Positions 6,632 through 50,885 of a stretch of DNA of 64,000 nucleotides are shown one piece after another (positions within the stretch are counted from its first letter, which is position 1; each line of letters opens with the position of its first letter). The stretch is from Utricularia gibba (taxonomy: Eukaryota > Streptophyta > Magnoliopsida > Lamiales > Lentibulariaceae). Both the position numbers and the translations under genes were made by a program. Below the pieces are notes generated by a model. That model saw only the letters and a list, made by a program, of their open reading frames with translations. It was not told the origin of the DNA and ran no database searches. The stretch covers positions 434,001 to 498,000 of the forward strand of contig CM007990.1 in the NCBI GenBank assembly GCA_002189035.1, read 5' to 3'.

Positions 6632-7815
6632 CTACAAGGTGCATTCTTGGGTAGGCCTTGATTTCTGAGACCCGGCTTTGAAAGGGCAGGGGGTCTCCAG
6701 TGGCGGAACCATGCAGTTGTACTGTAGACACACCGAGGTGCTCTGTGGAATCTCCACCGTCGGGTTGATCTGGATCCCCGTCAGATAGTTGTGCTGCAGA
6801 TACAGAACCTGTATGCTTGCCGATAGGATCCTGTCCACGAAGCAACCGGGGACCTGCCCGGAGAATCGGTTGTTGTTCAGGTACAGAACCGGGACCGTTG
6901 AGAACGAGGGCGGTATATCGCCGGAGAGGCGGTTGAAGCTGAGATCGAGGGTCTGGATTTTCACCGGGCTGCCGGTGGGTTGTACGTGGCCGGAGAGCTG
7001 GTTCCTCTGCAGTTGAAGCGTGGTGATGGGGAAGGTGAATAGAATTCCCGGGATCGCGCCGACGAAACGGTTCGCGCTGAGGTCGACGTAGTTTAACTGG
7101 TTTAATGTGGAAATCACGCGGGCGATTGGACCGGAGAGGCGATTTGCGGACAGCGAGAGGTGTTGGAGAGATGAGGGGAGGCCTTGGCGGGGAGCCACCC
7201 GTACAGCTGGTTCTGATTCAAATCCAACCGGGTTAGTTTCTGTGATATCAGCGGCGGGATTGTACCGGTGAGGTGGTTGTGGCAGAGTATGAGGTTTGTT
7301 AGCGCCGGCAGTGTTCCGATCGAAGCAGGGATGGTGCCATTAAGCTGATTGTAACTGAGGTCCAGAGTTTCCAGGCCTTGAAGTGTTCCCAGGTTTTGGG
7401 GAATCTCACCGGAGATAAAATTGCGACTGACAGCTAAAAACTTGAGCGATTTCAATTCCGTGACGTTCTGCGGCAGACGGCCCATTATCCGTCCCGGGAC
7501 GACGGTGAACTCCTCCAGAGCGGTGAGCTTCCCGATGGCAGGATCGAGTCTGCCCATCAACCCAGGGGATCCGGCGCGGGGATCGCCGAGGTTAAGGGCG
7601 CTGACTCTGTCTCCGACACAGTAAACCCCGGCAAAGTTACATGGGTCGGAGGTAAAATCCCATGAAGCGAAGTAGTTGGAGCCAGGCATATCCTTCAAGC
7701 TCTTTCTGATGGATTGCAGGGCCAGGAAATCATTGGGGTCGAGCATGGCCTGGGAGACCACTGCGAAATTCCAAAAGAAAACGAAGATGCAGCAGCAAGA
7801 GCTCCATCTCTCCAT
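6632..7815 (-). CDS. Secreted leucine-rich repeat protein, frameshifted by one base
   Basis: This is a cell-wall or apoplastic LRR protein without a kinase domain. A hydrophobic signal peptide (residues 1-22, start ATG at 7815) is followed by the LRR N-terminal cap (SDPCNFAGVYC) and about nine plant-type LRRs (LxxLxLxxNxLxGxIP). The C-terminal cap includes LQHNYLTGIQINP and CLQYNCMVPP, typical of a conserved single-exon plant LRR family. The coding frame changes inside the fifth to sixth repeat: upstream residues read ...LYGWLP in one frame and LPSSLQHLSL continues in another. The switch falls at the G4 run 7189-7192 (C4 on the coding strand). One extra C there restores the family pattern and makes the length 394 aa. 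I infer a sequencing or assembly error; a real null allele is the alternative. A TATA box lies upstream at 7863-7874. Confidence 0.88.
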
Positions 7816-7862
7816 CGGAGGAATGAATTTGAAGGGAACGCAGGGGAGGTGGCGATGTGTAT

Positions 7863-7874
7863 GCATATATATAT
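7863..7874 (-). promoter_or_regulatory. TATA box of the LRR gene
   Basis: An uninterrupted TA tract (atatatatatat context) lies about 50 bp upstream of the LRR start codon, at the expected place for a TATA element with a short leader. It could also be a simple repeat. Confidence 0.5.
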
Positions 7875-7906
7875 ATGTGCAGGATGGTGAAGAAGCTTTA
7901 ACGTGA

Positions 7907-9801
7907 AGCTTTAATGGAGACAGCCATCAACAGCTGTAGAGTGGCGTAATCATAGAGCCCCCGAAAAGATAGATAGACGTATAAATTTGGCTTCACAGGA
8001 AAGCAATCAAGAAAACTGAAGCCTTATTGATGGTCTTTAGTGCGTGCAGGAGGAGATGGGCCGATGCTTGATGAATAGCCATAGTGGGAAAGGGGGCTGC
8101 CTGTCTCGTGGACCCTGCTGCTCATCAGGCCCCGGTAGGTGGTTTGGTCATTGGAAGGAGTGGGGGCTCCCGTACCTTGCTCCGTCATATTCGGGTATAT
8201 CTCTTCTTCTTCTTATTCTTCTCCTCCTAAACAACAGTTACCATTCCCATTTCTCGCCTTCTCAGGATTGGAAGGATTCCATTTGAGCAGACCAATTACA
8301 AAGCGGCAACGATGACACTCATTCCATCTGACAGGGGGGTTTTGATTGTCATCACCTTAATCCCCCATCCTACATGTCCAGCCTTGCTACTGAGTGAAGC
8401 ATCCCATAATAAGAATCAATAAATGCACTGTTGACGTGGCGTTCTCTGCCTTTTGACCTTTGTCGGGATGGGGAAGCTTCCGCCCGGGCCCCGGCGCAGA
8501 CAATTCCGGCACCCCTCCTCGGTTAGTATAGTTTTCATCATGTGTTTCTGTATTTTTGTCTTCCTCCTATTCCCATTATGCCATCTATCTTCATTCTTGA
8601 AAAGTTGATTTTGCTGAGTTTTGGGGTTTTGGTAGCTCAATGTGGGCATTGGATGAATCGGGTTCATTGATACCCATCATTCAATCCCAAAATCTAGCTC
8701 TCATGTTAGATCCTATGCAAAAAAAGTGTCTTGATAATGCATAAATGTTGTGAGCATGATCAAACACATGGTGGAGGCGGAGAGCATTAGTTATTAATCT
8801 CTATTATTGCAGCGCTGGGCCATGGACAAGGGTATAGAATAGTAATGGCATGACCTCCCTTATTTAATTCCCGGGGTGCTCTCTTACAACTGGTGTTAGT
8901 GTTTATGGAGCATGTCCGTTTTAGTACATTATAATTGGAATGTTAGGTGTGCACTAATAGTTGCACTAAAAGGTCATTTTCCGCACACTGATCATCATTA
9001 TCCCCTCTTTATAACAATTACCATTTCACATCGGATTATTTGTTTAATTAAAAATTATGATTTCTTGTCTGAAAGTTCTTTATTTAAATTACATGATTCT
9101 GTAGTTTATATTATATTTTACAATACTATGTTTCACTATGCCATCAACAAAGCAGGTGTAAGAGTGAGGGCCCCCGGCTCTCTTTCTTACATGACAACAA
9201 AATCACATTAAGAAGGATGGTGGACGAGGAAGAGCCTACCTGTCCTAACACATCATCTTCAAGCAGCAGCAGCAGCAACCAGACACTGCAGCTCTGCTTC
9301 AATTATTTTGAAGCAGTCCCCTACAAAAAACTTCATGAGCTGCCCTCTTCGTACGTGGATGATTCCTCGCAAATCGAATAGTCGATATGGTGCGCATTAA
9401 GACACTTTACACTCGTTCGTTGTCGCATGGTTCCGTGCTGCTATGATGTGTCACTACTATCATATCGTATAGCATCCTCCTCCATCACTCATGATGTCGT
9501 TCTATGTTAGTGGATTGGATGGAGAAAATCTTGTTATTTACCCTTTTTTCTCGTTCGGTTTGGGCCCCTTTTACGGCCCATTAACAGATTTGGCCCATGT
9601 GATGCTGCGCGTGGAAAGCACGCAGATTCTCTGTTATCCAGTTGTAGCAAGGTGTTGGAGTTTTTTTTATCAGAGTGACCACTAGGGCGATCTGCATGAA
9701 CAAAAGATGATATAGTCTCCTGCATCCAAAAATAGTGAAGCTCCTCATTTGGTTGTTGATGGAAATGCGCCTTCTTCCTGCATGGAACTCCAAAACACCA
9801 C
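7907..9801. other. Intergenic region, 1.9 kb, no gene recognised
   Basis: Several short open frames exist on both strands but none has coding character or family motifs. A pyrimidine-rich tract with repeated tct units lies near 8200-8225, and an (agc)n run near 9262-9280. Three GGCCC/GGGCC-type motifs occur at about 9563-9597. The left part includes the promoter of the LRR gene, and the right end may include a last exon or 3'UTR of the bHLH-like gene. Confidence 0.5.
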
Positions 9802-11361
9802 TCATAAGAACAAACAACATGAATGGGGCTGATATGCGGAAGGAATTTCTGGAACAGTCAGTGATGAGAATATTGCATGTCGGAGGATGAAGAAGATGCT
9901 GACCTTGTAGGTAAACCCCTTCAATGGATTCTCATGTAATCCTTCAGAAAAAACTGTAGGCATGACTATGAGGCCTCTGCTTTGGAGCAGCTCATAAGCT
10001 GCTGACGGATCGACACTAATCAATCTCCCTAGTGTTTCTTCTACTGGCCCTTCAAGCATTTGTTCATGGACAATATAATGGCCAAGCCCCTGAAAGTTGA
10101 AAAACAGCAATTTTGATATTCATATGCGGGATGATGATATCTTTAACAATGGTACTGCAGATGAAGTTGAGTCATGTACCTCTAGGAATAACACAGAGCT
10201 AGAAGTGGGTTCGCCACCTAATCTTCTTTGACTGAGATCCTAAAAGACATATAGCATCTCTAATACTTGTAAGCATGTGCGCTAAAGCTAATAGAATGGG
10301 TGAGAGTGAAAAAAAATATAATAAAAACAATCCTCCCAATGCAGAGTAGTAGGGGAAATAGTTTCCGAGTCCAAAAGCATCACTGATGCTACCTTCATTT
10401 GGCACTGCAACTTCTTCACGTAGTCAATGACGTGATCCAGAAATGCTTCTCTATCAACCTGTAATCATACTTTTCCTCATTCAAAGAATGAAAGCTGTGT
10501 TTTGGGTGAATTTGTGCAGTCTTACCATTTGTGAATGAGGCACTACTTCTTGTAAAGCTCTAAGTGCATGCGATAATCTCATTCTGCGAGACTAAACAAA
10601 ATCGAAGAAACATCTGAGATGCATGAAAATGAAAGGGAAAACTCTCTAACCCATTAAGACAGGAAAACGCCTGGTGATTCACAAGAGAATATGCATACAC
10701 GGTCACTAGCATATGCTTTCTCCCTCGATCTCTTCCTTCTAGAATCAGAAGTGTGATGTGTTTTAGCAGGACCTGATCTTAAATAAGCTTGAGGAGCATA
10801 ACTGCTATCCGAACTCCACACTTGTTTCTGTGAACAAGTATTCCTATGAGGGAGGCGTATGGAGGCTTAATTTTAAAAAGGGCCACGGTACAAACTTGAC
10901 CTGAACTCCCACTTGATCTTCCGAGTTTGCAAATTGACTCGCAGAATTTCCCTCAAAATGCAAGCTCACATATGGTTCCTGCTAGAACCAACTACAAAAT
11001 CACATTTCACATATAAAATCGAATCATCAGTCATCAATGCAAAAGTAGCCGGCTATACCAACTGAGAATGTTCTGAAATGAATCCTTGGTTTTGCGGCTG
11101 CATGCTATAATGCATTTGCTCCTTGGGTTCAGAGTATCCCTTTTCACTAAGGAACTGCAAATAATTGTGAGGATTCTCCTGGAAATGTTCCCACTGAGTT
11201 GTTAGAACCGGCATTTCATAAGTGCCACTACTTTCAAGAACCGTGACATCTTGCTGCTCGTCATTGATGCCACCAAGAAACTCATAAGCATTCTCTGATA
11301 TCCTCCCATTAAAAGTCACCGGGAAAAAATGCGAGTTCCTTCTAAAATCGTGTTCCTCCAT
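9802..11361 (-). CDS. bHLH-like transcription factor with weak basic region
   Basis: Seven exons splice in phase 0: 11059-11361, 10901-10981, 10699-10827, 10526-10591, 10393-10458, 10180-10239 and 9904-10089. The start is MEEHDFRRNSHFF at 11361. The N-terminal 140 residues are acidic and low-complexity. The basic part reads RRKRSREKAYASDRSRRMRL and helix 1 HALRALQEVVPHS. Helix 2 is FLDHVIDYVKKLQCQMKDLS. After it comes RRLGGEP, then a conserved C-terminal block (GLGHYIVHEQM...LLQSRGLIVMPT). The basic region lacks the usual H-E-R spacing of E-box binders, so DNA binding may be weak or altered. The 3' end is uncertain: either the frame runs through to a stop at 9802, or a GT donor at 9903 leads to a short last exon I could not place. 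The family is known from angiosperms, but I do not assign a symbol. Confidence 0.75.
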
Positions 11362-12340
11362 TACACAACCAGCGAACTGCGCTGCCAACCAAATAAACAT
11401 TTTTTAAAAGAAAATCATGAAAACAATATTCAAGCGATACAACTCGAAATCTAGCACAAAACGGTAGAACACTACTAGCAATCGTTTCGAAAACATCATA
11501 TGGATAAAATGCGTATATCGAATACTCCTGGGCTCCGTCACATATCTGCATATCTACAACCGCAGAAATTAAACACCAAAACAACAAGTTCACACGCTGC
11601 GAAGCATCAAACAAAAGCATGCCATTGTAGAAGCACAAAACCTGGAGACCAGACGGAAATGCGTACTATTGTACTGTTACGTACCCCATGAAGTGGAGAC
11701 GAAGAGAGGGAAAATGCGATTTACAAAAAAAGAAAACAAAAACAAAGAAGGCTTTGGGCCTATTTGAAAAGGGCCGATCCATTGCTTCCTATGGGCCTTA
11801 ATAAGGAAAACAAAAAATAATAATTTATAATGAAAAAATTTTATGGTAAAAATCACAATACTAAAATATTATGTTAGCTTATAGGGAACAACTCATATGA
11901 TAAGTACGACAGAAATGTTACGATTTCTCATAAATTATGATGATTCTAGTTATACAATATATTGATTCAAGCATTGTTCCAAATCGATTACATTGAATCA
12001 TGAAAATCCGATCATCTGATAAAACAAAGTCACAATTTACATATGATATTCAATATTATAAGAGTTATACATATCATCTCCTATGTCGTATATTGAATTA
12101 TTTAAAATCAAAAAAATGATTTCGAATAGTCATGGTCTAAACTACTAAAAAAAATATAGTTTATGATCTATCACCAAACATGGACGTAATAAACTAACAT
12201 ATTTCATTTCTTAAGTTAATATTTTTGGATAATTATTTAATTAAATGATTTAGAAATTGATATAATATAAATATCATCTAAATTTTGTAATAATATATCT
12301 AATTATTGTATCTTCAAAAAAAAAAAAAGCTTTACTCATA
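11362..12340. other. 5' leader/promoter of bHLH-like gene and AT-rich spacer
   Basis: The leader of the minus-strand bHLH-like gene contains an intron acceptor (ttggcag) just upstream of the start codon. Around 11755-11805 there are three GGGCC/GGGCCT motifs (site II-like, common in plant housekeeping promoters). From 11806 to 12340 the sequence is strongly AT-rich, with no open frame or clear repeat, and ends in an A12 tract near 12317. Confidence 0.5.
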
Positions 12341-14225
12341 CTCCCTGGACGGTTGACAGCGGCATGGATAGTGTCCTATTTCAAACGCCCACGCGCTGGT
12401 GGTTCTTGAGAAACGGGGAGCTACCGGGATCTGGAAATCTTCATCGGAGAAAGGACGGGAGTGAAACCAAAAAGCCATGATGATGAAGGAATAATCCGTT
12501 TCTGTTCAGAGATGGAATGAATGCGAATAATCGGTGTGATGTGAAAACTTGAAACATATGGAGAGCACACAGTGTGAAGAAGATTTGGCATCAGATACCA
12601 GACCAGTAGGAATTCGAAAACGAGGCCTGGATGTGACCTCCCCAGCAGAGGACTTTTGCGCACAGCACAAACATGGCGAGATTGCTAAAGGCCCTAACGA
12701 CCAGGAAAAGGAGAAGATATTGTTGAAGATATGCTGTTGCTGTGGGGAGGCTATGGAGCCAATGGGGTGCCGAAAACGCTGCTCCATGGGGCCGTACCCT
12801 TCTCAGTGCAGTTGGGTACGAACGCTTTGAAAAGTTTTGCGTGCAGATGGGACGTGGGAAGGGACCCTCTCTCATGCTGCTGCTGCCGCTCCATGTTTCA
12901 AATTTGTTTCCCTTGCTTTTGCTCATTCTAGTGGAAGCCTTATACCTCTTATCCTACTGTGCGAGCATGAATTCCCACCATCCCTGTCAGATTCTTTTAA
13001 GGATAAAACAACGTGAGCTCTGCTGTGTGATGGGAGATGGAGGGGCCGAGGAAGAAGATGAAGCATATAGTCTGGTGAAGAGATGGCATCATCAGACCGC
13101 CCCTTGATTTCATTGTACAGAATGGGGATTCCCCACAAAACTCTAGGTCTTGGTGTGCCTACAATTATGCAGGCTGCCTCAAAATGGATCTTACACACAC
13201 ATTTGGGGTGAAAGCTCGGATCTTGTACACACAGATGGCAGATTAACTACATATAGTGTTAGTGCGGCTCGAACGCATGATTCGTGCATCTTATCACCAT
13301 GTGCAGTCCTTGCTTTATTTTTCCTTGATGGGCTCCTTGGAGGAGGAGGAGGAGAAGAGGTAGTAGAGCAGCTTGGAGACACACATGTGCAGATGTAGTG
13401 AAAGGAGATTTTGCAATAATGTGATGGATAGGAGAGAGTATGATGAGGAGAAAGAAGAAGTTGGTGACAGGAAAGGAATTTGAAAAGGTGTTCCCTTGCC
13501 ACATTGAAAAGGAATTTGAAGCACATGTTCATGAGCTACTACTACGTTGGAGTCTGATGTGCCTTGTTGGTTGTTAGAACATGTACCAATCTTTGATTCT
13601 TGAAGTGGGATTTGGATATTGGATCCATGGACTTGGATTATCTTCCAGAATCATGAATTGGTGCAAGATTTTAGCAGAATCACCTTGGGAACCACTAGGA
13701 GACAACAAGTGTGAAGAGAATCCCAGCTCTAGATCAGCAGCACTTTGCTGTGTACAGTTTCTGCTTCCTTGATGATATCCATTTATTGGACTCCAGCTCC
13801 AAAAGCATAAAGTCAGATGTAGAAACCAAAAAGTTGAAGAACATGTGGATCATAAACAACCTTACAGAAACACAGAAACAAAGTTGAAATGCGAGCAACC
13901 CCACGTACATTCTGGTACACCATTAAGCTGGGATCCAGATGGAATCCCGTTCCCCGCAGCACTATACGTGTGCATGCATTAGATGCCATAAGAGCCAAGT
14001 TGTCTCCATTAGGAAAGCCTGAAGTCTTCTGTAAGATACAGCAGTTATCTTGTTCTGATGGTTTGGGAGGAGGGATTTTAGCGCAATGGGATGGCAACAG
14101 CACTTTGGTAGTAGAGAGATTACACTAGACACAGACAAGCATCTTCCTATTCGACAGATCTAACTCCAGACACCAACCATGTCTGGAGTTTATTCATAAT
14201 GATTTGTAGGAATGTCGTTCGATGA
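12341..14225. other. Gene-poor spacer with no supported coding gene
   Basis: Base composition is more balanced here than in the flanks and several 80-120 codon frames are open on both strands. They overlap one another, lack family motifs and do not connect by plausible splicing. The part near 13800-14225 is probably the 3'UTR of the FANTASTIC FOUR gene. A CT-rich microsatellite-like tract lies near 13340-13360 (plus-strand gga/gag repeats). A non-coding transcript cannot be excluded; I saw no conserved microRNA. Confidence 0.4.
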
Positions 14226-14816
14226 TCATGAAATGGCGACGCAGTATGGCAAACTCCTCAGCCTGTCGTTGTGGTGAGACTCGCCGTTGCAACGGTTACC
14301 GGACCACTCGCCGCAGTTGATGACACAGCACCCGCCTCCATCTTCTTCCTCCGCAGTGGCGTCCCATGGACGGCGGGTGTCGGTCTCGTCTTCGGGCTCC
14401 TCGACGCCTTCCCAGTTGTTGCTGATGATATAAAGGCGGAGCCGGCCCTCGTGGCGTTCGATTCCGAAGTGGGTGCTGCAGGAAGACGGCTTAGAGGCTT
14501 TGATCACCAGCCTTCCTTCTTCCCGCTGGGAATGGATATGGAGAGCGATGGAGGTCAGGGGAGGAGGAAAGCTGTAGCTTTTCTTCTTCTCTACGCATTT
14601 AAGCTTTGGGGCGGCAATCGGGGTTTTCCGATACTCCGGCGCTGTTCGATCCACCGGTGGTTCGATGGCGCTCCCGCTCTCACTCCCTAAGCTCTCAGTG
14701 CACATCTCCAAGCTTCTCAAGCTAAGAAACGAACCCGAAACGGGATGAACATACATTTTCTCATGGAGAAGAAGCTTGTTCAGATTGGAGAAGCTCGAAG
14801 AAGAGGACGATGACAT
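14226..14816 (-). CDS. FAF: FANTASTIC FOUR (FAF) family protein
   Basis: FAF proteins repress WUSCHEL and regulate shoot meristem size in Arabidopsis. This is a single-exon gene of 196 codons. The FAF domain is at residues about 80-135: FPPPLTSIALHIHSQREEGR then LVIKA, CSTHFGIERHEGRLRLYI. The usual C-terminal acidic stretch follows (EEPEDETD), with a Cys-rich end (GGGCCVINCGEWSGNRC). The start is the ATG at 14816 preceding a poly-Ser run; the codon just upstream is GTG. A good TATA box lies 90 bp upstream. The family assignment is firm; which of the FAF paralogues it matches is not. Confidence 0.88.
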   Translation of the reverse strand: MSSSSSSSFSNLNKLLLHEKMYVHPVSGSFLSLRSLEMCTESLGSESGSAIEPPVDRTAPEYRKTPIAAPKLKCVEKKKSYSFPPPLTSIALHIHSQREEGRLVIKASKPSSCSTHFGIERHEGRLRLYIISNNWEGVEEPEDETDTRRPWDATAEEEDGGGCCVINCGEWSGNRCNGESHHNDRLRSLPYCVAIS

Positions 14817-14914: not shown

Positions 14915-14924
14915 GTTCCAAACC

Positions 14925-20943: not shown

Positions 20944-23900
20944 ATGGCTTCTAGAAAGGCGAATGGTTCTAGTGTCAATGGCTTGAGAAAGCGTCAGAGG
21001 GTAACCGTTCAGAGAGGTACAACAGGTTTGGAGTATTCTTCAGAAGCCTGTTAAATCTATCAGTTTCTGTATCTTTAATTGTTTTTTCGGTTTTTTAGAT
21101 GAAGATGTGCGGTCGGAGTTGCTGGAAACGGGGAAGTATGGAGATCCAGAGCGTTTGAAGAACGAAAAGGAACGAGAGTTTGCGAAGAGGAGCGGCGGCG
21201 ACTGGAGCTGCTGTAGAGAGAATGAGAGCACGGATTCGAGTGGTGAAGAGTACTCTGAGGGGGAAGGTGATGTTAGAGTTCATCATCCACGAAATCGGTT
21301 TTCTTCTCCGTCGTCCCACTCCGTGAACAACCATCGTGGCTTCCGTGATCTCGCGCCGTCTCCGGAGCAAAGAAATTGTGCCGATGAAATCCTGGGTTTT
21401 TCTGTACCTCGAAGAACTCGCTCTGGTTCGTTTCAGGACTGGGTTGCTTCGAGTTTTCTCTCACTCTGTTTTTTTTTTTTCTGAATTTGCTTATTTTCCC
21501 CTATTTTTTACAAAATCTTCAGCTACGACGAGAAAATTTCCAGACATCATGGATACAAGAAGTGGTGGATTTCGGGAAGAGTTGGTCCAACGCAAACATT
21601 CAGAGCATCCGACGATGGTGCTTTCATCAGCTATGCGGGGAGATTCGCCTGCACCGCCGTTAGGTGTTTCGTTGAAGAAGAAGGTTATTGATTGCATCTT
21701 TTTTAGGAATTTTTTTACGGAGAACCTGTCACGGAAAGGAGATTCGCTGATTGTCTTTGTTCTTCCTACTTGCTTGTTTCGCAGAAATATTCAGAGACTA
21801 AAACTGGGTTTTGGAATTGCGCATTTGATTCCTTGGCGACCCCGGCTGATATCGAGATCGAAGCTGCTGAAGCTCTGTTCGACCTCATGCGGCAATCTTA
21901 TTCTCAAACCCGAATTCGCGAAGAGCCAGAAAAACTCGATAGGGAAAGGATATGCGATGCCCATGGCGGTAAAATTCGAGATCTCTTCACGGCTCTGGTT
22001 GAAAATTAGTGAATAATTCCTTTTCTTGAATAGACGTGGGGTTGGGTGGAGTACAGAGTTAAAGATATTAAGAGCTGATGGTAACGACAAGAATAATTCC
22101 TTTTTCAGATGAGGATGAAGCCTCAGCGAAAGCGAAAGCTGGAGAAACTTCGGTTGACTCAATCGGTGCAGTGAATAAACAAGTTGTTTTCGAGAAAGAT
22201 AAATCTTTGGATGAAGGGTTTGATGGATCGGTGCGTGGAGTTGAGCTTGCCATTAATAGAGAAGTGGGGTCTCGAAAAGAAAGCGAAACACTATCATATG
22301 TCGAAGCAAATCCTCGTGATGTCCGGGATCCGCCAGCGACAAACGCGTGAGTATTTTCCTGTTTTCTTTTCCATTTATTACACACTTCTTTTTGTTCCGT
22401 TCTCGATACGGCTTGCTTGCTGCTCTACCATTGGTCTCTTGTGTGGTGCAGGAACAATGCAACTGATTTAGAAGCTAAAAAGGGAACCCAGCACGAAATG
22501 GATTTGATGGTTAGTATTTCTCATAGAATTTGTTTTTAGATCGTGGGATTATGATTTCTTAGTGGTTCAGTGATGTTTGTCGGAGTTGTTGATGTTGCTC
22601 GACAGTCTTTTAGATAGGTTGCGACATTTCTTTTTTCCAGATTGCAGAAGTTCTCTCTGTGTTTTGTTTTCTTACGTGTGAATTTGATGCAGGGCAGAGA
22701 AGAGGTTCGACAAGAGGCCCCTCAATAGTTCTGTCTCAACTGGTGGAGGAGAACCCGGGATTTTCACAGCAAATTGTCCGGGAGGATTCCAAAAATCAAT
22801 GTACAATACTGGAAGCTTTTACTTCTTAATGAAGTCTTTGTATTTAGCTTCCTCATTGCTTTGGTTTTTGCAGTGCCAAATGCTGTGTTGCCTTCAGTTG
22901 GTGGAATAAACAACTTGCATGGTGTTGTTTCTCGTGGAGGGTGTGTCGAGAATCTGACTCTTTTATTTAATGGAAGATTCCCTTAGCTGAAATTGTTGTT
23001 TTTCCTGTAGGCATATGCCTCAGTTTCAAGCTGTGTATCCAACGGATGCAAGTGCCAGATTTATGAAGGTGGCTTTTCATTTGCCTGCGGTGTGCATTTT
23101 GCTCGTTTCTGTTTCGTTTATCATTGCTTTATATTTCCATTGTTTAAATTTGCAGCTGCCGCAGTTTAAATTGTCCCAGCCTCAGCCAAAGAGATGTGCC
23201 TTGCATCACTGCATAGCGAGGGATATTCAGAATCACCAACAATTAATCAAGTCCATGTCACTCTCAGCTCCTCCTGCCGGCATATGTGGATCCCAGATGT
23301 TAAACCCAAAAACAGTGTCAACACCGCAAAACCTCGTACCGGAGGACCTTTCACTAGGAGACTCTAAACCCCACAAGAAACCAGTAAGCATTTCTAATGC
23401 CTCTTCCTCTGTGAATGTTCCCCAGATAACCAATTTTACTTCAACAAGTTCTACACCAGACCTCAGCACATCACAGCGAAAAGATACTTATTCATGGTTG
23501 TCCGTTATTGCAGTGCGGTCCGGGCTTCACCTTTGGGCAGAAAAAACTTTTAACTAGCTCGTCTGCTGCTAACCAAACTGCTGGAGCAACTGGCAATGCA
23601 TCGCTGCCCTCTAATCCAGCAGAAAGGTCCATGAGTTTACCCTTTCCCAGAGGAATGTCTACAATGAACTTCAGTCATCCAGTGTTTCCTCCCAGCAGCT
23701 GCTACCCAGTTCCCATTTCGCCAAACCATGTTCTTCTCCCTTTTGGAGGAGTGTCCTCTACCGCCCCCCTTTTGACCCTTCATCATGTTTCAGTGTCAAC
23801 CAGATACAGAAAAATTCACTTCCCCTTGCTGTAAAGCCTCCAGCGTTCCAGAATATGGGGTCATTGTCCCAAAATCAGCCTCTGAGTTTGCAACAGAAGA

Positions 23901-24439
23901 ACCTGGACAGACGACGGGACGCTTCCACTCTTGGTGGGCTGTCCCCGAACCTGCCATTGGGTGCTCTTGGTGATCCCTTTTCTACGGGTAAAGCTGAACC
24001 CTTTTCTTCTCATCGGTTAGTGTCGCCGTTTGGAACAGCACAGAACTCTGGCATCTTCCAACTGCATCCTGATGTGATCCAGACAGCAGCAAATCAGCCG
24101 CCCCCGAGAAGGAGTTGCAAGGCATCATCTGATGCCAACACCGCGATGAACAGTGGCCAGATTCTTAACTTCTCGAACACTGGCTGTGCTGATCTGCCGT
24201 CTGCCTTTCCCGTGCCATTCCCTATCCTCACAGAGCACCAAAAGCCAGCCAGGATTGCCACCGGAGCAGCTGCTGGACAGTGGGAGGCCTCCATCCTTCC
24301 TCCAGCTGCCTCACTCCAGGGTGTGGGAGGGATTCAGACAGCAGCATTGACGGCGGCCACCTTGAGATCCGCCAGCAACCCAGAGATGGATGCTCCTCCC
24401 ACCCAGAAGAGGGGAAGCGTCATATCCATCCTAAGCTGA
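20944..24439 (+). CDS. TIC: TIME FOR COFFEE-like clock regulator, frameshifted
   Basis: TIC is a nuclear plant protein needed for circadian amplitude and jasmonate signalling. Exons: 20944-21025, 21099-21425, 21523-21683, 21785-21968, 22109-22346, 22452-22509, 22698-22800, 22874-22940, 23011-23068, 23156-about 23383, and 23514-24439. Family marks are ILGFSVPRRTRS, the IEIEAAEALFDLMRQ segment, and the PQFKLSQPQPKRCALHHCIA block followed by a Ser/Pro-rich region. Two problems occur. Between 23384 and 23513 the frame is open and coding-like, but does not continue into the next part unless that stretch is an intron or carries an indel. At the C6 run 23764-23769 one base is missing: SSTAP must continue as PFDPSSCFSVNQIQ. 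With that base, and with 23384-23513 read as an intron, the length is 810 aa. This is much shorter than typical TIC proteins (about 1500 aa), so it is a short TIC-like form. Confidence 0.78.
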
Positions 24440-25321: not shown

Positions 25322-25758
25322 CTACATTGCTTTTCTTGGTTTGGGGGTGGGGGGAGGGCGTACCGGTACCGGAGACGTGCCGCGGCGGCTGGGGGCGAGG
25401 GAGACCAGTAGATCGGCGAAGGCGGCGAGGACGAACTTGTGGGTGTCCTTAGTGTTCAGGGAGAGGTAGCACATCAGGAGGTGATGCAAGTAGTCCCACT
25501 TGACTTCCGCCCCCCTCCTCACCTCCACCATCTCCTGCATTGATCGCCGGAAGTCGACGTACGGGTCCGCCGAGTAGGTCGGCACCGCCACGCACCCGCC
25601 TCTCATATGCCCCCGCTCCCGGAGGAGTAGTCGACGATGGAGTTGGAGGAGCCGGGGGAAGAGAAGAAGAAGCGCTGAGACGCGATGGCCGACGCGATCG
25701 AGTCCCGTGTCGCCGTCTCCTCCTTGGGGCCATTTTCGTGACTCTCGGCCTCCCACAT
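25322..25758 (-). CDS. OVATE family protein (OFP), short and frameshifted
   Basis: OFPs are plant repressors that bind TALE homeodomain proteins and shape organs. The OVATE domain is clear: SADPYVDFRRSMQEMVEV, then LHHLLMCYLSLNTKDTHKFV and AAFADLLVSL. The upstream part with SIASAIASQRFFFSSPGSS is in another frame. The switch lies at the C5 run 25610-25614, where one base is missing. With it, the product is 145 aa from the ATG at 25758. Most OFPs with this domain have a longer N-terminal region with an NLS; the frame upstream of 25758 stays open to 26118 but does not look like protein. So the start is uncertain and the gene may be N-terminally short. Confidence 0.78.
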
Positions 25759-27126
25759 TGATGAGAAACCAGAAGCAGAACAAGGAATTATTTGTAGTGC
25801 AACTGCCCACACGGACACGGATTTACTGTCCGGACGCCCGTGTCCATCATTTTTTTGAATTAAAAAAACAAAAAATCCCACCAAATTAAAATCAATTATT
25901 AATTCGTATTTAATAACAAAGTCGTTTGTTTTTGGATGAAACGTCAATTTGTGTGTGTGTTTGGAATGGGATGGTTGGTTAGTTCCTTTTGTGGCGCGGC
26001 GGAATCGGCGCAGCCCCGTCGCGCATTTAAAGAAACCGGGGACCAGAAGATCGGTGACCACCGGCTCCCGGAATTCAATGAGCCGTCCGGTCGTCACCAA
26101 CCACCGCGAGCTCGCCACATAACTGACAAGGATCCGCCGCCTAACTCCTCATAACGGATTAACTAACCCCCACCCCAATTCCCAAGCATTCCCAATTTCC
26201 AGTTATTATTATTATTAATCGATTAAATGATATTGGAATTGGTTTACATAAAAATGATGTATTGAATGTGTGTGGGTTTAAAATTTTGTAATCTAATTTA
26301 TATCTATAGATAAATTGATTTTGAATAATATGATATAAAATATATTATCAAAATATTCATAAATTTTCATATCCTGTAACTATAGTACATCATGCATCGT
26401 TGAGGGTAAGGTTGCAAATGAGTTGAGTCGGGCCGAACAATCATAATATGGGCCTACAATATTGGGCTACCCGTGTAATAATCATAATATGGGCCGGGCC
26501 GAAATAAGCAATTTTGGACCCTATTTTATATCTTGAATTTCTATTTTATTATAAATATTTTTCAAAAAAGAAAAACAAATCCATACTCAAATTGGACCTT
26601 TTTCTAATAATAAATAGACCTTGATTTGATCACTCGCATTCATTATTAAAGTAAAAAGAAAAAAATTGAGGATGGACCGGACCATCGTGCCCACATGTCT
26701 CTACAATAACATTTGATCATGTCCGAGCATCTTTTTTTTCTTTCTCTTTTTTGTTTCTCAACATATCATTTCGAAAAATGAGACGTGTTATGTATTTTGA
26801 AGTTACGATCAAATTATGTAAAATAGAATCAGTTTTGAAATTATAAAACTTTGGTATAGAATAATATATAGTTATATTACAAAATTTAATAAAATGATAA
26901 GACATGATCACTAACAAAAATGGATTGGATGGGACTGAATCTGCACAACATGGCCATCAAATTGTCACACTCCTCCCTATTACATCCACTGCCTGAATTC
27001 ACCCTTCTCCTCTGTTTGAATTGCAGGGGAGGAGATAAAGTAGAACAGCTTGAGGTGGCAGTGACAATGGGGGATCTTAATCTGATGATTTTATTTATTT
27101 GTTCTAACATGGGGAGACAACACACC
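25759..27126. other. AT-rich spacer upstream of the OFP gene
   Basis: The spacer is strongly AT-rich from 26190 to 26900, with a 16-bp direct repeat (aatcataatatgggcc) at about 26440 and 26481. The repeated GGGCC motifs may be site II-like elements. No gene was recognised. The right end is the 3'UTR of the FLZ gene. Confidence 0.45.
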
Positions 27127-34008: not shown

Positions 34009-37000
34009 ATGGCAAAGTTTTCAAATGCCGACAACAGGAGAATGTACTCCTGGTGGTGGGATAGTCATATTAGCCCCAAGAACTCGAAGTGGCTTAAGGA
34101 GAATCTCACAGGTCCTTCCTTGTAGTCATATTATCAAGTTTACAGTGTACTGCACCATAATGTAATAAATTATCTGAACCTTTGTCTCCACGGTGGAGAA
34201 AGACAGTGCTGAAAAGCTTCTGTCTTGCACTGTTTTTTATGCTGTTATCCTTGATGCAAATGAGGTTTTTGAGAAGTTTCAGCTGTGCTTGTCCCTTTTC
34301 TCATGTAGATATGGATTCCAAAGTCAAATCGATGATAAAGCTCATTGAAGAAGATGCAGATTCATTTGCCAGGAGAGCAGAGATGTACTACAAAAAGCGG
34401 CCGGAGCTTATGAAATTGGTGGAAGAGTTTTACAGGGCGTATCGAGCATTGGCTGAAAGGTATGATCATGCAACCGGAGTTATCCGGCATGCCCACCGCA
34501 CTATGGCGGAAGCCTTTCCGAACCAAATGCCGGCAATGTTTGCTGATGATTCACCAGTAGGTTCTGCTGATAGTAGAACCTCTGATTCATCTACCCCAGT
34601 AAGTTTTCTTTGAAACAAGATTATTCCTGTTTCTTGATTCTTCTCATTACTTCCTTTTTTGTTCGCTAATGATCCTGACCTCGAACAGAACAGGGAGTTT
34701 ACGGATGATTCTGAATCGGTTGGCCGTAGAAAATCTTTTACACGTTTTAGGGATGAGTTCTTGCCTGTTGATCAGGCAAGGAGAGAGCTTCATTTTGATG
34801 AGATGGAGGAGAAAGAAGACAGCACCCACAGCAATAGGAGGAAGGATCATGACTCTGAGGAGATTATGGCTTTAAAGGAATCCATTGCTAAGCTTGAAGC
34901 TGAGAAAGAAGCTGGCCTTTCTCAGTATCAGCAAAGTTTGGATAGATTATCTGATCTCGAAAAGGAGATGGCCCAGATCAAGGGAAGTTTTGAAGTTCTT
35001 TCTGATCAAGCTAAGAAAGCTGAATCTGAAATCACTATCTTGAACAAGAAACTGACTGAAGTTGAAGCTGAAAAGGAATCTCATCTTCAAAACTACCAGC
35101 AATCTGTGGAGAAGATATCCAAGCTTCAAGAGCATGCTTGGGAACTTGATAAACGAGCCGAATCAGCTAATAGCGAAGCCCAGTCTTTGAGAAGTGAACT
35201 TGAGAAACTGGGATTGGAGAAGGATGCTGCTCTCAATCAGTATATGCAATCGTTGGATCTGAGATCGACACTGGAGAACAAGTTGCAGCTCACTGAAGAA
35301 GATTCTAAGAAGTTGAAAGAGAGAGCAGAGAAAGCGGAGAGTGAAATTCAAGTTCTCAGAGAAACTGTTGCCAAGTTGACTCAAGAAAAGGAAACTGCAG
35401 CTCAGAGATACCAACAGTGCTTGGATACAATCGCCACATTGGAGGAGAAGTTGAAGATTGCTCAGGAAGAGGCGAAGAAACTCAGTTTTGAGGTTACTAG
35501 CAGAGACACAAAGCTGAAGGGAGCTGAAGAACAGTTTTCCCTGTTGGAAAAGTCAAACCAGTCTCTTCATATGGAACTGGAGGCTTTGATGGTAAAAATG
35601 GGAACTCAAAGTCACGAGCTTACAGAGAAGCAGAAGGAGCTTGGAACGCTTTGGGCTCGCATACAGGAAGAAAGACTACGGTTTGTTGAGGCTGAAACGG
35701 CTTTCCAGACTTTGCAGCAGTTGCATGCACAAACTCAGGAAGAGCTTCGAGTTATGGCTTCTGATCTGCAGCACAGGGTTCAGAATATGAAGGCCATGGA
35801 GGCCGAGAAGCAAAGTTTGCAGGATGAATTCTCCGAGATTAAAAAGGAGAACAAGCACCTGGAGCAGCTAAATGCCTCTTTCGAATTGTCGATTAAGGAT
35901 ATGAAGGAGGAGATGTCAAGCTTGGTAGAATCAAAACAGAAACTCAAGGATGAGCTTGAGCTGAGATTTGACCAGAAAAATGCATTACAGCAAGAAATAT
36001 ATTGCCTGAAAGAAAATTTGAATGACTTGAACAAGAAGCATATAGGGATTATGGACCAGGTACATGCTGTTGGCTTGACTGCAGAGTCCTTGGAATCCTC
36101 AGTGAAGGAGTTGAAGAGCGATAATACTCGTCTGCAACAAACTTTGCAGATTGAAAGTAGAGAGAAATCAGCACTGCTCTCAAGGCTGGAAATTCTAGAC
36201 CAGCTCTTTGAGAAAAACTCTCTTCTGGAGAACTCACTAGCTGATTTGAATGCTGAATTAGAAGCTGCCAGGGGGGAGATCAAGAGGTTGGAAGAGTCTT
36301 TCCAGTCCTTGTTAAATGAAAAATCCACTATTCTCGAAGAGAAATCTAGCCTTGCTGTGCAGCTAGAGGAAACAAACAGGAATTTTGAAAAACTTTCGCA
36401 GCATAATGCAGTTTTGGAAAACTCCCTTTCTGATGTGCAGAATCAACTTGAAGTTTTAATGTCCAAGTCTAATATCTTGGAAGATTCACATCAGTTACTT
36501 GTAAATGAGAAAGCTTTGCTAAAGATTGATAATGATGGTCTAAGTGTTCAGTTGGAGGTTATTCAAGGGAAATTGGACGATCTTATGAAACTCTATGGAG
36601 AACTAGAAAAGAGAAATTTCGCACTTGAGAAAGAGAAGGAAGAAAATCTTAGTAATATAGGAGAGTTGCAGTTGTCTTTGGAGGTGGAGAGGCGGGAGCA
36701 TGTTAACGATGTTTATGTAAGTCAAACAAAGTTTAGCGAACTCAAAACCGAGATGGATCATTGGCAGGAAGAATGCAGAAGAAGAGAAGCAGAACTTGAT
36801 CAGATGATGGGTATTGCCTTAAATAATGACATTGAAATACTTGTTCTCGGCATAACTGGCCAGGACTTGATCGAAAGAAACCACTTTCTCCGCAGTGAGA
36901 ATGTTAAACTTTCAGAAGAATCACTTCTACTAGGAAGGAAGATCTCACACTTAGAAGCAAATTATTTGAAGCAACAAGATGATAAAAAGGTTCTGATTGA

Positions 37001-40000
37001 CCAAAATAGAGTCCTGCGAGCAGGGAATCATCAATTGTTGAGGGCTGTCGACATGGCTGAGGATTTCTGCATTGATGCTAAAGGTGAGAAGGATCAGGTT
37101 TATATTGACCAGCTTTTAAGGAGGATTCAAAACATGAAACAATCCCTGAAAAAAAGTGATGATGAGAAAATTGAGGCTTCTCTTGAAATGATTCCACTTC
37201 TCACTTGGATCCGGCAACTGGTACATATGAATGAAGAATTGAGATCCGAGTTGCAAGAGGGAGACTGTTTTAAGGAAACTCAACTGAGGCAGATTGAGGA
37301 TTTGGGGTTAAAGCTAAAGGATATTCAAGCATCTTTCGAAGAGATGCAAAGAGAAAAAACAGAGCTTTATGCAGAGAAATGTTCTTTGACTGATGAGATA
37401 CTGGGTTTGGAGGAAAAGAGCAGTGTCCTTGAAGTGGAAAATGACATTTTGTCTATAGAAATGTTGGATCTAAAAACCATGTCTTTAATTTTCAGAAGGC
37501 TTGTGGATGAAGGAATGTTCACAATACAAAATCTCATGAAAGATCTGACAACTCTTCAGGACAAGAATGCTACCCTCGTGGGAAAGCTGCAGTTGGCAGA
37601 AGGAAGGTTGCAAGACGTTGAAATCGAAAATCTTCGTCAAAAGGAGGTGCTGCAGAAGATGGATGAAGAAGCCAAGGACTTCGCATTTTTAAAGAATCAG
37701 TTGTATCATGAGATCGAAAGTGGGAAAAAAATGTTGCAGCAGGCGGCGCTGGAACTTAAGTTGGCTGAAGAGAAACTTGTTGTAGTGGAAGAAGAGAAAT
37801 TTGAGTCAAAAAGGCAAGTGGAAGATCTAAGTGTGCTGTATAATATACTCAAAGTGAATCACAACGAACAGGGGAATCAGATCCTGAAACTATCAACAGA
37901 CGCATGCCATTTGAGGATTGAGAATGAACTCTTTCACGATGTGAGCGGGAACCTTGAAGGTGAACTGCAAAACAAATCCGAAGAGATAAACAGGTTGAAT
38001 GATGAGATTGAAAATGGAAAAAAAATGTTGCAGCAGGTGGGGTTGCAACTTAAGTTGGTAGAAGAGAAGCTGGTTGTAGTTGAGGAAGAGAAATGCCAGT
38101 CAAAAAGGCAAGTTGAAGGTCTGAGTGTGCTATACAATGAGCTCAAAGCGCGCCATGACGAGCAGGGAAATCAGATCTTGAAACTGTCAACAGATGCATG
38201 TCATTTGAGCATTGAAAATAATTTGTCGCATGATGTGAGCTTAATCCTTGAGGACGAGCTTGAAAAAAGATATGCAGAGATGAAGAAGTTGAATGATGAG
38301 ATTGAAAATGGAAAAAAATCATACACCAGGTGGGTCTGGAACTTAAGTTAGCAGAAGTGAAACTCGTTTTAGTAGAGAAAGAGAAGTTTGAGTCAAAAAA
38401 GCAAGTGGAAGGTCTGAATACGCTGTACAATGAGGTCAAAATGCGTCAAGATGAATACGAGAATCAGCTCCTGAAACTATCAACAGGCACATGCCATTTG
38501 AGCATTGAGAATGATTTCTTGCACGATGTGAGCCGAAAGCTTGAAGATGAGCTGCAAAGCAAGTCTGGAGAGATGAATAGGTTGAGTGATGAGATTGAAA
38601 GTGGGAAAAACATGTTACAGAAAGTGGCACTGGAACTTAAGTTAGCAGAAGAGAAACTGATTGTAGTGGAGGAAGAAAAATTTGAGTTAAAAAGGCAAGT
38701 GGAGGATCTAAGTACGCTATACAGTGAGCTGAAAGTGCGTCAGGATGAACAGGGGAATCAGATACTGAAACTTTCATCAGAGACAAGCCATTTGAGCATT
38801 GAGAATGATTTCTTGCATGATGTGAACTTAAGCCTTGAAGATGAGATGGAAAACAGATCTGAAGAGATCAACAAGTTGAATGATGAGATTGAAAGTGGAA
38901 AAAAAATGTTGCAGCAGATGGCGCTGGAATTTAACTTAGCAGAAGAGAGACTGATTGTAGTAGAAGAAGAGAAACTTGACTCAAAAAGGCAAGTGGAAGA
39001 TCTGAGTATGCTGTATAATGCACTCAAAGTGAATCACAACGAACAGGGGAATCAGATCCTGAAATTATCAACAGACACATGCCATTTGAGCATTGAGAAT
39101 TACTTCTTGCACGATGTGTGCAGAAACCTTGAGGATGAAATGCATAACAAAGACGAAGAGATAAGCAAGTTGGACAGAGGAGCTTCATCTATTCTGAGGC
39201 AATTTTTTCATGTCATGGTAACTCAGCTTCTATACGAGCAGAAGTGCCATGAACTTCAGGAAGCCTGTCTTGAATTCATGTATCAAAATGAAGCTCTTAA
39301 AACTGAATTGGCATCACTTGCCCCAGACATTGAGTCAATGAGGGAATGCGTTTGGTCACTAGAGAACTACACTAGTACACACATGAAGCTTCACCATCCC
39401 AAGGACGAGAAGCTGGAGGTACATTTGGAAAAAAATGAAATTTCAAATTTTGAGGACTTGAATTATCTGCTTTATCATTCCAATTTCATGCGGCTTCAAC
39501 TGACTATTTTATCCATTTCTAGGATCCTGATGCTGCTAAGAGTTTGGATGAAGTCGCCTCGAGCAAAAATGAGAAGCATATGCTGCAAGATCCCTTCATG
39601 GATCTGCATGGTAGACTTCAAGTGGCTGTAAAGACAGTAATGGGCATAAATGATCATTTGATTCAAGAAAGCGGTGATCTGCGTTCCAAATTGGACGCTT
39701 CAAATAAGCAACTGGAGTTGTTGCAGAATGAGGTTCAGAATATGAGGCCAAAATCTGAAATAACAGAGGCTGATGATGCTCTTTTGACTAAAGATATTGT
39801 GCTTGATCAGGCGTCGGATGGCAGTAACCGTCATGCAGTTGATGAAAATCATGTCTTGAAGCTATGGGAGATATCTGATCCAGACCCAACACTCAGAACA
39901 CCCAAGAAAAAAGAAGTTTTGGGATCATTTACCGAGGAAGAACTAACCTTGGGGATGCTAGAAACCTCAAAAAAGTCAGCTGATCTGGTCCATGAAGTAA

Positions 40001-44333: not shown

Positions 44334-44589
44334 GCTTGCAACAATGCCTTGCCCTGAACAATCTGGAAGCCTGGTTTTTGAACCTTCGTCTCCAGTGGCA
44401 TCAGCTTCGTGTAATATCATTTTCTCTGAATAATGAATGATCTCTGACAATAATCAGCATGTAACAAAGAGGGCTATAACAATAAACATTGAAGATCACT
44501 CAAGAGTATAACACATGTTGCTGTTGCATTAGATACACAGTATGGACTATGAACAACAGTGCAGGATGGGAAGAAACCCCATTAGCAAT
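44334..44589. other. Tail-to-tail spacer, FORKED-like / LIFEGUARD
   Basis: 256 bp between two stop codons. The plus-strand gene's 3'UTR probably overlaps the minus-strand one. No feature beyond AATAA-type polyadenylation signals. Confidence 0.4.
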
Positions 44590-45572
44590 TTAAGTCTCAG
44601 CAGCTCTGAAAAGGTTCATCAAAGAGATGAAGAGATTGAGGATGTCCAAATACAGAGCAACGGAAGCCCAAATGTATTCGTCGTAGGAGTACCGCTTGAT
44701 CAGATTGTCTGTGTCGTAGATGATGTATCCTGCAAAGATTATTGATGCCACACCGCCGTAGATCATCACGGCGATTTTCCCAAAGGGGAAGAAGATCTGA
44801 AATGCAACAGTGCAGTTATAGTCAGCATACCATGAATACTACTTAACAGATAGATAACCCACAGGCAGATGGTAATGCAAGAACCTGAATCAGGGAGAAC
44901 ACCAGGAGGATAATCACAGCAGAAAACAAGAAGGGTCCAAGGAAATTGAAATCTTGGCCCCTCTTTGCGGCCCAGAAAGTGTAGAGAGTCAGACTAATCA
45001 CAACCACCGCTGTTAAGACGGCAGCCTCCAGAATCACTTTCCCTGCAAACGCAGAAGAACCTCAATTTTCCGGCGAAGGCAGAAGAACTTCAGCAATCAA
45101 AACCACTTACCGCTGGTGAAGGCACAAGTTATTCCCAAGGCAAGTGCAAGAGAAAGGGTGAAAACTCCTAGCAGAAAATAGTTGACCGGATGCTTCTTGT
45201 AGTAGAACTGCAACGGGCACAACGCTGCAAATCCCAAATCACCCGAATAAGCAACAGTAGGCAAAAGCACAAAAAATCCCCAATTCAAAAGAATACGCGA
45301 CCCCAAAGGAAGAGAGAAGTTTCCGTACTGATCAGAGGAGTGAAGATGATGACGATGTAAAGAGCTAAGCCAGCGCTGGTGGTTGCGAAGAATCGAGAGA
45401 CGGGATGAACAGAGACGACGACGGCTGCAACAACGACGGTGAAAAGCAACTGAATCGTGATTATTGAGTATATTTTCCGTATGAACGACCATCGGAGCTC
45501 CGGGTTCTCGAGCATCGCCGGGTACAGCAGCTGAGCGCCGCCTTCCACGTCACTTTTCCGACCACCCCACAT
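44590..45572 (-). CDS. LFG: LIFEGUARD / Bax-inhibitor-1 family membrane protein
   Basis: LFG proteins are seven-transmembrane proteins of ER/Golgi type membranes that modulate cell death and susceptibility to powdery mildew. Four exons: 45329-45572, 45111-45224, 44885-45042 and 44590-44796, giving 240 aa. Seven hydrophobic segments are visible, including LLFTVVVAAVVVSV, TLSLALALGITCAF, LTAVVVISLTLYTFWA and FLFSAVIILLVFSLIQ. The family ending is GYIIYDTDNLIKRYSYDEYI then ASVALYLDILNLF. Start MWGGRKSDVEGG at 45572 (ATG). Confidence 0.95.
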
Positions 45573-46228
45573 TCTGGAACCCCTCTCGAAATTGACCAAG
45601 GAGAATATGCTTTGACGAATTGAATACGTGAGGGGCAAGGCGGCCGTTATAACCACACCAAACCCAAACCCAAAGGAAACTTCCCGATGACCGTTCTTAC
45701 AATCCGACGGTCCCCCCTTCTCACTCCGGAAAGATCCAGATTTTCCAAGGACACTTTTTTGCGTAAACGTAACTTGCTGAGACAAAAAAATCAACAAACA
45801 TAAATATCTAACTCAAAGACAGGAGGGGTTTTCTTTTATTTTGAACAAATGGCGTATAGTGTAAACATCCAGTGGCAACAGCAATCACCCCAAAAGATGG
45901 CACCCGGCAGCAGGGAGGGAACTCTGTGGATCCCTTGAACAAATGCCTGCAGATCTCATTGAAAACTATGGCATCACATGAATACTAGCAGCAATATACA
46001 CATACATTGCTGTAGGTTCTGGATTTCAGAAAGCATAGGCTCTATGACGACGGACTCCAAAGGTGGAAAAAATGCGAATGGTGATCATTCGACGAGCTGC
46101 AAATCACAAACAAGAACAGCATCCCAGTTTGTGAACATGGATGGGTACTTTGTGCATCTCAGTAAAGTTCTGTAGTGCGAGATAACCTTGTTTAGAAAAG
46201 GGTGGAAGAGATGATTACCTCTTTTGTG
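45573..46228. other. LFG promoter and SEC24A 3'UTR
   Basis: 656 bp between tandem minus-strand genes. Open frames are short. No repeat or RNA gene seen. Confidence 0.45.
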
Positions 46229-49200
46229 TCATGCAGTTTGTTGGACTTGCCTGTGGATCAGCAACATCCAGTCGGGGTAGCCGTTGGCTCCGCCGAAATT
46301 GTCCTCCACTAGATTATTCAGAAAGAAGTAGCCTTCTCCTGGTTTTTCGCCTTGTCTCACGAGGCGGCATAATTGGAAGTATGATGGGTCACTCTCTCGG
46401 AACTTATTAAGTATCTTCATGAGCTTTCTTGAAATCGCATTCTCCTTCTGTGTAAGGTAAACCTGCATTAAAAGAATCAAGGATCATCTCAGACTAGATA
46501 CAATGAATGCAATGAAAATTGAAATTAGACACCATATGAGGCAGAGTTACAAAAAAATGGAAGATAGCTTAATTGATCAGAACTTGGTATTTTTTGAACT
46601 GCCATGAAGGAACAGAATCGGAATCATCAGGTAAGAAGCTTGCCTTGGAGATATCTGCCGAGAAATCATCCCCAAGTAGGCTCCTAATTATATCAGGTGA
46701 TAGGGAATTTCCAAACCATATGACAAATTGAAAGCCGTTGTCCAAGATATAAAGACATCTGGGATCTAAGCTCTGTGCGGTAAGTGGCAGCTTCGGTGCA
46801 ACATTTTCAAAGTCCCCAGGCTGAGAAGAGATACATCGTAAGGCATGCTTCGAAGATTAGGTATTACAGTTACAATTAAAAGATGAGAATAAAAAAAGCT
46901 TACTTTAATAAGGATGTCGTCTACCCGGACAAGAGTAGGATACAGAAGCTTCAACAATTTTTTAACTGGTAGAGCCATCATGGTAAATCCAGCTGCAGAG
47001 CGCTCATCAAGCTGCGCATCAGCATATCCACCACGTAATGGAACTGATTTAGCTATGGCTAATCCATACAAGGATAAGAATTTTAATGAATCTGGGAAGA
47101 TCAGCCGTCCGGACAGGCGATGCTGTACAGCATACAGATTTTTGTATTCTCTGAGGGCCTTGACTATCCGGAGTTGGACAGAATTCCGAGCATCTTCCAG
47201 CTTGTAAGACAAACTTTTTTCAATTGCTGCAATATTCAATAGTGATGAAAATTTTAGTTCCCACTGGGTTTGAGAAAAAAGCAGATGCTGGGAAAAAAAA
47301 AGGTGATTTCTCATACCCAGCCTGGTAAGCAAAGATACAACAGCACCCACATCAGCCAGGCGATACATTTGTCCGAGGTCTGAAACAACAGGCGCAGCAG
47401 ATGTATGCACTCGAATGCGCCTTTCCCCTGAAGACGATGTATATCTTTGAAATAGTTAAGTTTCATTGTCATTGATCATTAACTAAAAAAGCACAGAGAT
47501 GTAAAGAATCCCAAGAAGTAACATCATTTTAAAATAACGAAAAAAAATACACAGGCTATTCATGATATATATCTCAGCACTGTAATAAGAAGGATACAAC
47601 AGTGCCACTTGGAAATACACAGTTGTTGTTGTCAGTAATGTATCTTCTAGGGATAACTGTGCTCCATAGGCCTTATCACAGTCAACAGCTGGGAGAGAGA
47701 TCAAGTCCGTAGATCTCATCATGAAGTTTCCATGAAAGGATGTGAAACGCACACCTACAAAGCAAAACGACTAGTTCAAAAAACATGAAGGCCACTACAA
47801 AGAATAATAAAAAAGAAATCTATACCTTTTCCACATCTTATCCTCATGACTGATTCCCAAGCAGTGTCTCTGGTGAGATCTCTGCTAAGTTCATGTTGCA
47901 GCCTATCTTTATGAACGCTTGAATGGAAATTGGGATAGTAATACACCTGACCGCCAGTATACTTGGCCAGAGTTCCTGGTGAGTTACATAAAATACATAT
48001 GCTAATCATAGTCATCCATGGAAAACTTGTTTGAAAGTACACATATGGAAAAAAATTTCGATACGTAAGAGGATTTCAATCATTTTGTAACAAATAAAAA
48101 TGATGAAAAGTACTGCATCGTAATTCAAAAAATACAATTCAGCCACCAAAAACCCTTTAACTGTTTTCTCAGTAACAAAAAGAATTGAAACATCGCAATT
48201 CTTTGATATCTCAAGGTTTCTGTAACAAAAAACTGAATCTGAAACGAAAAGAGAAAGCAAGAAAATTAACGTAGCAACCAAAACAAGATACCCTACAATA
48301 AAAGCATTTTACAACATTGCAATGCAACCACTTACCTAAGGATGCTATGTCGGTGTACTTATCACTAAAAGAATAGACATTCACAGCAATCTGATACTTA
48401 TTTAGATCAGCAGCCATTTGCTTATAGAATGGATCTTCTGCTATTCGTAGTGTATGCTCCTTGTCTGTCCCATATAACTTGATATCATCTCCACGCAGCC
48501 TTAGGCGACCAACTCCCAGTGATGGAAGAGTATGTTGGAAAATCAACAATTTACCACCAAGTTGGCTCTAAGGAAAATGGTTAAAAAACAAGACCATCAT
48601 GCCAACATGAAAAAAAGCTCACAGTACCACAAAGTGCAATATCAGAATGAGAATCATAACAGCAAGACCTTTACAAAAAGTCAATAAAACGAAATCAAAT
48701 ATTACAAAAAACTAGATAACACTAGAAAATCTACGCACCAGAACCATGAATGTGGCTTTAAGGGCAGGGCCAAATGCAGATTCGACATTTACGTTATCAT
48801 GAAATACAGCCGGCAGCATATCAAGGAATGTATCTACCACATTCCTGGATTCTGACAAGTTCACAAGAAGGTCATCTGGTAATGGAACAAATATATCTTC
48901 CAAATCCGAGATGACCATCATCTGAGGTTGCATCAACGATGACTAGTGCAAGAGAAAGTCATGTTACTCGCCATATAAAGTTGTAGAAATTAAAAGGTTT
49001 TTTAGATCACATGCCTTCATGTTGTAGAAGTGTATGGTGCTATCATAAGTGATGAATCCAATCTGCGTCCTTGGATACCCAGGGAGACTGTCCAAACATG
49101 ACTTAATAGTTTGTGCCATGACCTGTAAAACAGGATACTTAAGCAAGTTTAACAAACAAAATATTTTTCCTGCTAAGTCTATCCTAAATTTGGTACAAAA

Positions 49201-50885
49201 TACTGTAATGAGAGGTCAGTAAGTTACTTGACAGCAACAAAAGAAATTACAATTACCTCAAGCATCCCACTTTGAACAGCAGATAGCGATACATCAATAA
49301 GAAAAAAATACGTAGGTGGCATTGGAGGGCGGACCATGTATTCAGCTGGAGCTATAATATCAACACTGCCCTTGTAAGTTCGGGCCTCTGATCTAAATCT
49401 ACTCTTCTTCCATTACCATCAATGTGAGCAAAATAATCGCCAGGAACTGAAAAGAAATGTTATCATAGATAAGTGCATGCCTAGATCCATTGGCAGGTCT
49501 CAGTTAGTAAAACATCGTAGCCACACATGCCATATTATATGTGCTCGAATCAAATGGCAATATGAAAGCCATATTATGGTCATAACAAAAAGGCTCTCCA
49601 AATCATATGAAAAAAATGGGATCTTATTTTCCAAATAAAAAACGGAAATTCAGAAAAAAAAAACTGACCATCATTTAAAAGTGAACAAATATTGCACCTC
49701 CATTTTCTCCCATTGTCTGTGAACACGACATAAGGGTTAATATAAGTACGGCATCGTCTACACCGTATTATGCCAGTTGTCGCAAAATTAACTACTGGAA
49801 CTTCATCCTGGAGGAAAATTACGTGATAGACAGATTAAATATACAGTGAATACAACAGGACATAGATCACATAAACCACAGAAAGGGTAACTAACCCCAG
49901 CAGGAGATTCAGCCAAAGGGCAGACAACAACACCTAGAGGCAAATGCCACCTAGAACACAATGATTGGGAACTCGGTACGCCACTTGTGGTCAGTCTAAC
50001 AAACCTTGAGCTGCAATTAGACGGATACATTTCAGAAAGAGAATTTGATTCAATGTCACCATCCAAAGGTCTTGGTAAAGATAGAGCATCAATTCCCCCA
50101 TCAAAAGATCCTGGGGCAGAACCAATTGTAAGTGAGTTAAAATCTTCCACCAAACCCTGAGCTGTAGAACTGGGTGGCGGGATCCCAACTTGTGCTACTT
50201 GGTTTCCTGGATAGACTGTGCCCATTGGGGTCGACATTGGTGGACTTGGATAAGGTACTTGTTGGGAAAGATAAGATGATGATAGGTTGGGCGGACCATA
50301 ACTTCCAAACTGTGGCAAAGAAGTAGGAGGATCCAGGGGAGGAGCTTGAGAAATAAAGCCTGAGGGCATATTTGTGGACTCTGGAATTGCAGCCCGTGGT
50401 GTTCCACTGCCAGTCACATAAGGTTGCCTTCCGAATGATTGAACAGATGGTTGACCAACAGGACCCAGCGAAGAGCTTTGAGGTTGTTGAGCAGGCACAG
50501 GTATGTTTGGATGATAGTGACCACCTCTGAGGTTTTGAGGACCGACAGGTAATTGACTGGGTTGGGGTTGTGGAAGAAAAGAAACAGGAGGAGGACCAGG
50601 AACTGGAGGCCTGAATGGCGGAGGTACAGAAGAGGGTGGTCCATATGCGGATGGGTGTGGTCTAAGTTGTTCGCTTGAAATACTTGATGGAGGCCTAATT
50701 CCAGGGCCTTCTGATCCAGCAATCTGCCCACTAGAGAAAGGAGGCACCTGAAAGTGAGATGCAATAGGCGGTGCAGGTCTAACAGCTGATGGCTCTGACG
50801 ATACAAATGGGGATAGGTTTGGCTGGGCAGAAAAACCTGCTGGAGGAGGTCGAAATGGGTAGCTTGGACGATTGGAATTTTCCAT
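46229..50885 (-). CDS. SEC24A: COPII coat subunit SEC24A, frameshifted
   Basis: SEC24 selects cargo in the COPII coat that buds vesicles from the ER. Twelve exons: 49896-50885, 49669-49807, 49257-49446, 49015-49122, 48739-48942, 48336-48567, 47826-47975, 47598-47754, 47317-47444, 46904-47226, 46644-46820 and 46229-46462. The N-terminal 300 residues are Pro/Gln-rich. The zinc finger is [14 protein letters not shown]. The trunk includes [11 protein letters not shown] and [19 protein letters not shown]. The gelsolin-like end has [18 protein letters not shown]. Exon 3 loses one base: DQRPELT must continue as [13 protein letters not shown], but the two-T run at 49372-49373 (AA on the coding strand) should be three. 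With it the length is 1010 aa. Introns after exons 4 and 11 use GC donors (AAG|GCATGT, AAG|GCAAGC). Confidence 0.95.

Follow-up and report, generated by a model that had tools for sequence, protein, structure and literature searches.

The question raised by this locus is whether five genes with interrupted reading frames are broken in the living plant or only in its assembled sequence. They lie in a window of 64,000 nucleotides (C2:434001-498000), which is the whole stretch analysed here, and the survey was extended to the complete assembly of 100.09 Mb in 516 contigs. We infer that this is the Utricularia gibba PacBio assembly, which was built by HGAP at 88x coverage with a contig N50 of 3.4 Mb (PMC5793159). 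Several contig sizes are exact multiples of 2500 (8500000, 6192500, 3452500, 2492500, and 642500). An initial annotation had described the five genes as one base short each, and a break was indeed found at or directly beside all five of the sites it had proposed:

6632..7926, minus strand: LRR gene in two frames, interrupted near 7189-7192 within a run of four bases
22991..24439, plus strand: last coding region of a presumably TIC-like gene, with the break at 23764-23773, where C6 meets T4
25322..25780, minus strand: Ovate family (OFP) gene, interrupted near 25610-25614 within a run of five bases
34161..39631, plus strand: NET1-like gene, with the break at 38312-38318 (A7) within a 98-aa repeat unit
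46640..50885 (outer limits approximate), minus strand: multi-exon SEC24A-like gene, with a mid-exon break at 49372-49373 (AA on the coding strand)

At all five sites two overlapping open frames on the same strand jointly encode one protein. Each gene contains a single frame break, is one base short, and encodes conserved protein on both sides. With high confidence we regard the five breaks as errors left in the consensus of a long-read assembly, which would have lost one base per gene, mostly within a short single-base run or next to one, with a preference for G/C runs. The genes are most likely intact in the living plant, since the same dropped-base error occurs throughout the assembly, and sequencing reads would be expected to show a longer run at the five sites.

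For four of the five genes, intact relatives, protein structures or repeat units support the shortfall of one base. The LRR gene is covered on the minus strand by an upstream frame (7114-7926) and a downstream frame (6632-7339), which carry the Pfam LRR and LRRNT_2 matches between them and meet where GWLP is followed by RQGLPSSLQ. Four relatives from the same genome (L040, L041, L042, and L043) cross this site in a single frame and match both halves with no residue missing between them. Judged from its match coordinates, one of these relatives (L043/L088, C321:1294978-1295573) is itself one base short elsewhere. A DNA search made for the LRR site found no duplicate contig of this locus, just paralogues of 66-75% identity. 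In the TIC-like gene, C6 occupies 23764-23769 and T4 the next four positions (23770-23773). Its paralogue L080 on contig C451 is intact across the junction and reads ...VPLFDPSF...SSCFPLNQ in one frame. The residues of this paralogue fit a loss from the short T-run at least as well as one from C6, and the lost base may be located in either run.

The NET1-like gene encodes a KIP1 domain within 34161-34613 and possesses a long coiled-coil exon. Between 37710 and 38980 at least 5 tandem copies of a coiled-coil unit of 294 bases (98 aa) were observed, about 80% alike in DNA. These units start at 37710, 38004, 38298, 38591, and 38885, resulting in spacings of 294, 294, 293, and 294 bases. The only broken unit is the one of 293 bases, and it contains A7 where two sibling units contain A8. 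In SEC24A the junction codons overlap by one base, and in several solved Sec24 chains the residue that ends the upstream frame directly neighbors, without a gap, the one that opens the downstream frame. No other close SEC24A copy was found in the assembly. In the OFP gene the Ovate domain (PF04844, E 1e-23) and an OFP-like N-terminal motif are read in different frames. Its break is argued from frame logic and motif order and appears to be the weakest of the five cases, because no close intact OFP relative spanning the junction was found. The closest-looking relative, L071 (C1:314406-314588), seemingly shifts frame upstream of its own Ovate domain.

The original proposal placed every site in a mononucleotide run. 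This description holds for the LRR, OFP, and NET1 genes and for the TIC-like gene, where the loss may be in T4 instead of C6, but the SEC24A site consists of just two A. The further claim that all five changes are deletions was confirmed. Taken by itself this count of 5 out of 5 is not significant (P = 0.06); it gains significance because genome-wide counts reveal the same bias.

These counts were derived from conserved families with few introns, namely GRAS, BAHD, HSP70, and UDPGT, the last being a weak control as just about 110-150 residues match the model. Length differences were calculated from the coordinates of neighboring partial matches in different frames, and only junctions too short for an intron were tallied. 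From 31 such junctions, 27 belonged to the -1/+2 class and 4 to the +1/-2 class (P = 3e-5). One of these 4 (C244:1854) turned out to combine two one-base losses that follow each other within a single gene. Where the exact length could be assigned, 15 junctions were one base short and none was one base long (P = 6e-5). Our purpose-written frameshift-aware alignment recovered planted -1 and +1 shifts in 40 out of 40 cases each and reported a false shift in 1 out of 25 intact domains. Hence, one-base-short breaks occur across the whole assembly, and the window is not special.

The GRAS genes also revealed an association with single-base runs. For this analysis, the interval compatible with each break was compared to matched intervals of intact genes. 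In the 11 break intervals the longest runs, which mostly were G or C, summed to 53 as opposed to 31 in the matched intervals, and none of 5000 samples reached this value (P < 0.0002). Protein-profile scoring could not pinpoint the exact missing base in these genes. A first localisation scheme, in which the junction residue was left unscored, was biased away from runs and was replaced by the interval test. Five GRAS genes (L034-L037 and L081), DELLA-type genes among them, break inside the same conserved stretch of Gly-Pro codons, where runs of C or G arise naturally.

The strongest evidence for under-calling in the assembly comes from two loci that were assembled twice. Over 2178 bases no substitution separates contigs C486 and C480, a pair that surfaced in a search for the TCP family; the only differences are two single-base losses, both of a C within a C-run. 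C316 and C412 differ over 4128 bases by 1 substitution and 10 gap openings; every loss falls in the small contig, both within runs and outside them. Natural alleles are expected to carry substitutions as well, so both pairs point to error, with the reservation that these loci are other than our five sites and that small contigs possibly are of poorer quality than the large contig C2. More generally, small contigs repeat parts of large ones (L020/L021 and L089/L090), C316 repeating part of C412 and C486 part of C480, and equal-scoring matches suggest that C241, C242, and C251 are further duplicates. Such repeated parts can serve as internal controls for the accuracy of the assembly. Homopolymer under-calling, the cause given by the initial annotation, was supported with qualifications. 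It agrees with the deletion bias, the bias toward G/C runs and the duplicate loci, but bases were in some cases dropped where no run is present. The cause is described more exactly as a deletion-biased consensus error that is strongest in runs of G or C.

Among the other explanations, true one-base mutations retain the most weight, although we consider it improbable that some or all of the five breaks represent recent pseudogenes or alleles that arose after whole-genome duplication. Many paralogues are present in the genome, whose redundancy could permit gene loss, and the control loci C402, C3:261, C244:2105, and C414 look possibly decayed. Like recent post-duplication pseudogenes, our five genes have a frame broken by a small indel. 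In contrast to such pseudogenes, they show one break each between long open frames, with no further stops. Purifying selection was unchanged downstream of the break in the LRR and DELLA pairs: dN/dS was 0.084 upstream and 0.095 downstream for the LRR gene compared to L040, and 0.147 before and 0.184 after the break for the DELLA pair. In the TIC-like gene the values were 0.18 before the break (43 codons) and 0.51 after it (47 codons only). Furthermore, SEC24A is without another close copy in the assembly, and the same type of error distinguishes duplicate assemblies of one locus. The view that these are not five independent pseudogenes is therefore supported.

Even less probable is that the plant DNA truly has the short runs and that the frame is restored, in many genes, by programmed ribosomal frameshifting or by transcriptional slippage on the runs. 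The stretch of Gly-Pro codons shared by the five GRAS breaks could resemble a conserved slippery site. However, close paralogues of two of these genes (L011 of L034 and L012 of L037) have an unbroken domain, and the shift is not conserved elsewhere either: the relatives of the LRR and TIC-like genes and the sibling units of NET1 are in frame at the site concerned. The breaks moreover are found in unrelated genes at unrelated positions, one of them in a run of just two bases. Unrecognised introns whose splicing would join the frames are highly implausible as well, despite the multi-exon structure of the TIC and SEC24A genes, because the frames abut or overlap in the DNA and leave no room; this reading was excluded for LRR, NET1, and SEC24A, where the shortfall is exactly one base.

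Consensus error, in our opinion, is an ordinary technical artefact and not a real biological feature, and as such it provides a useful warning. Counts of gene losses and pseudogenes may be distorted when they are taken from this assembly. About 11 genes in GRAS alone, including DELLA-type genes, contain one-base-short breaks, and in the surveyed families coding sequence is interrupted, as a very rough rate, once in several kilobases. Caution is called for where specific genes are claimed to have been lost from this compact genome.

Residual one-base errors are known from long-read-only bacterial assemblies (PMC8812927, PMC12007338). Our data conform to this type of indel error in the one-base shortfall with conserved frames at four of the five sites, in the excess of deletions over insertions and in the association with runs in GRAS genes. 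In addition, where other loci were assembled twice, the two versions are distinguished by indels and hardly by substitutions. As in the bacterial assemblies (PMC8812927, PMC12007338), most errors are deletions of one base, they concentrate in runs, and they break the frames of conserved genes. There is no difference in kind; here the errors are found in a plant nuclear genome, mostly in G/C runs, with some bases dropped outside runs.
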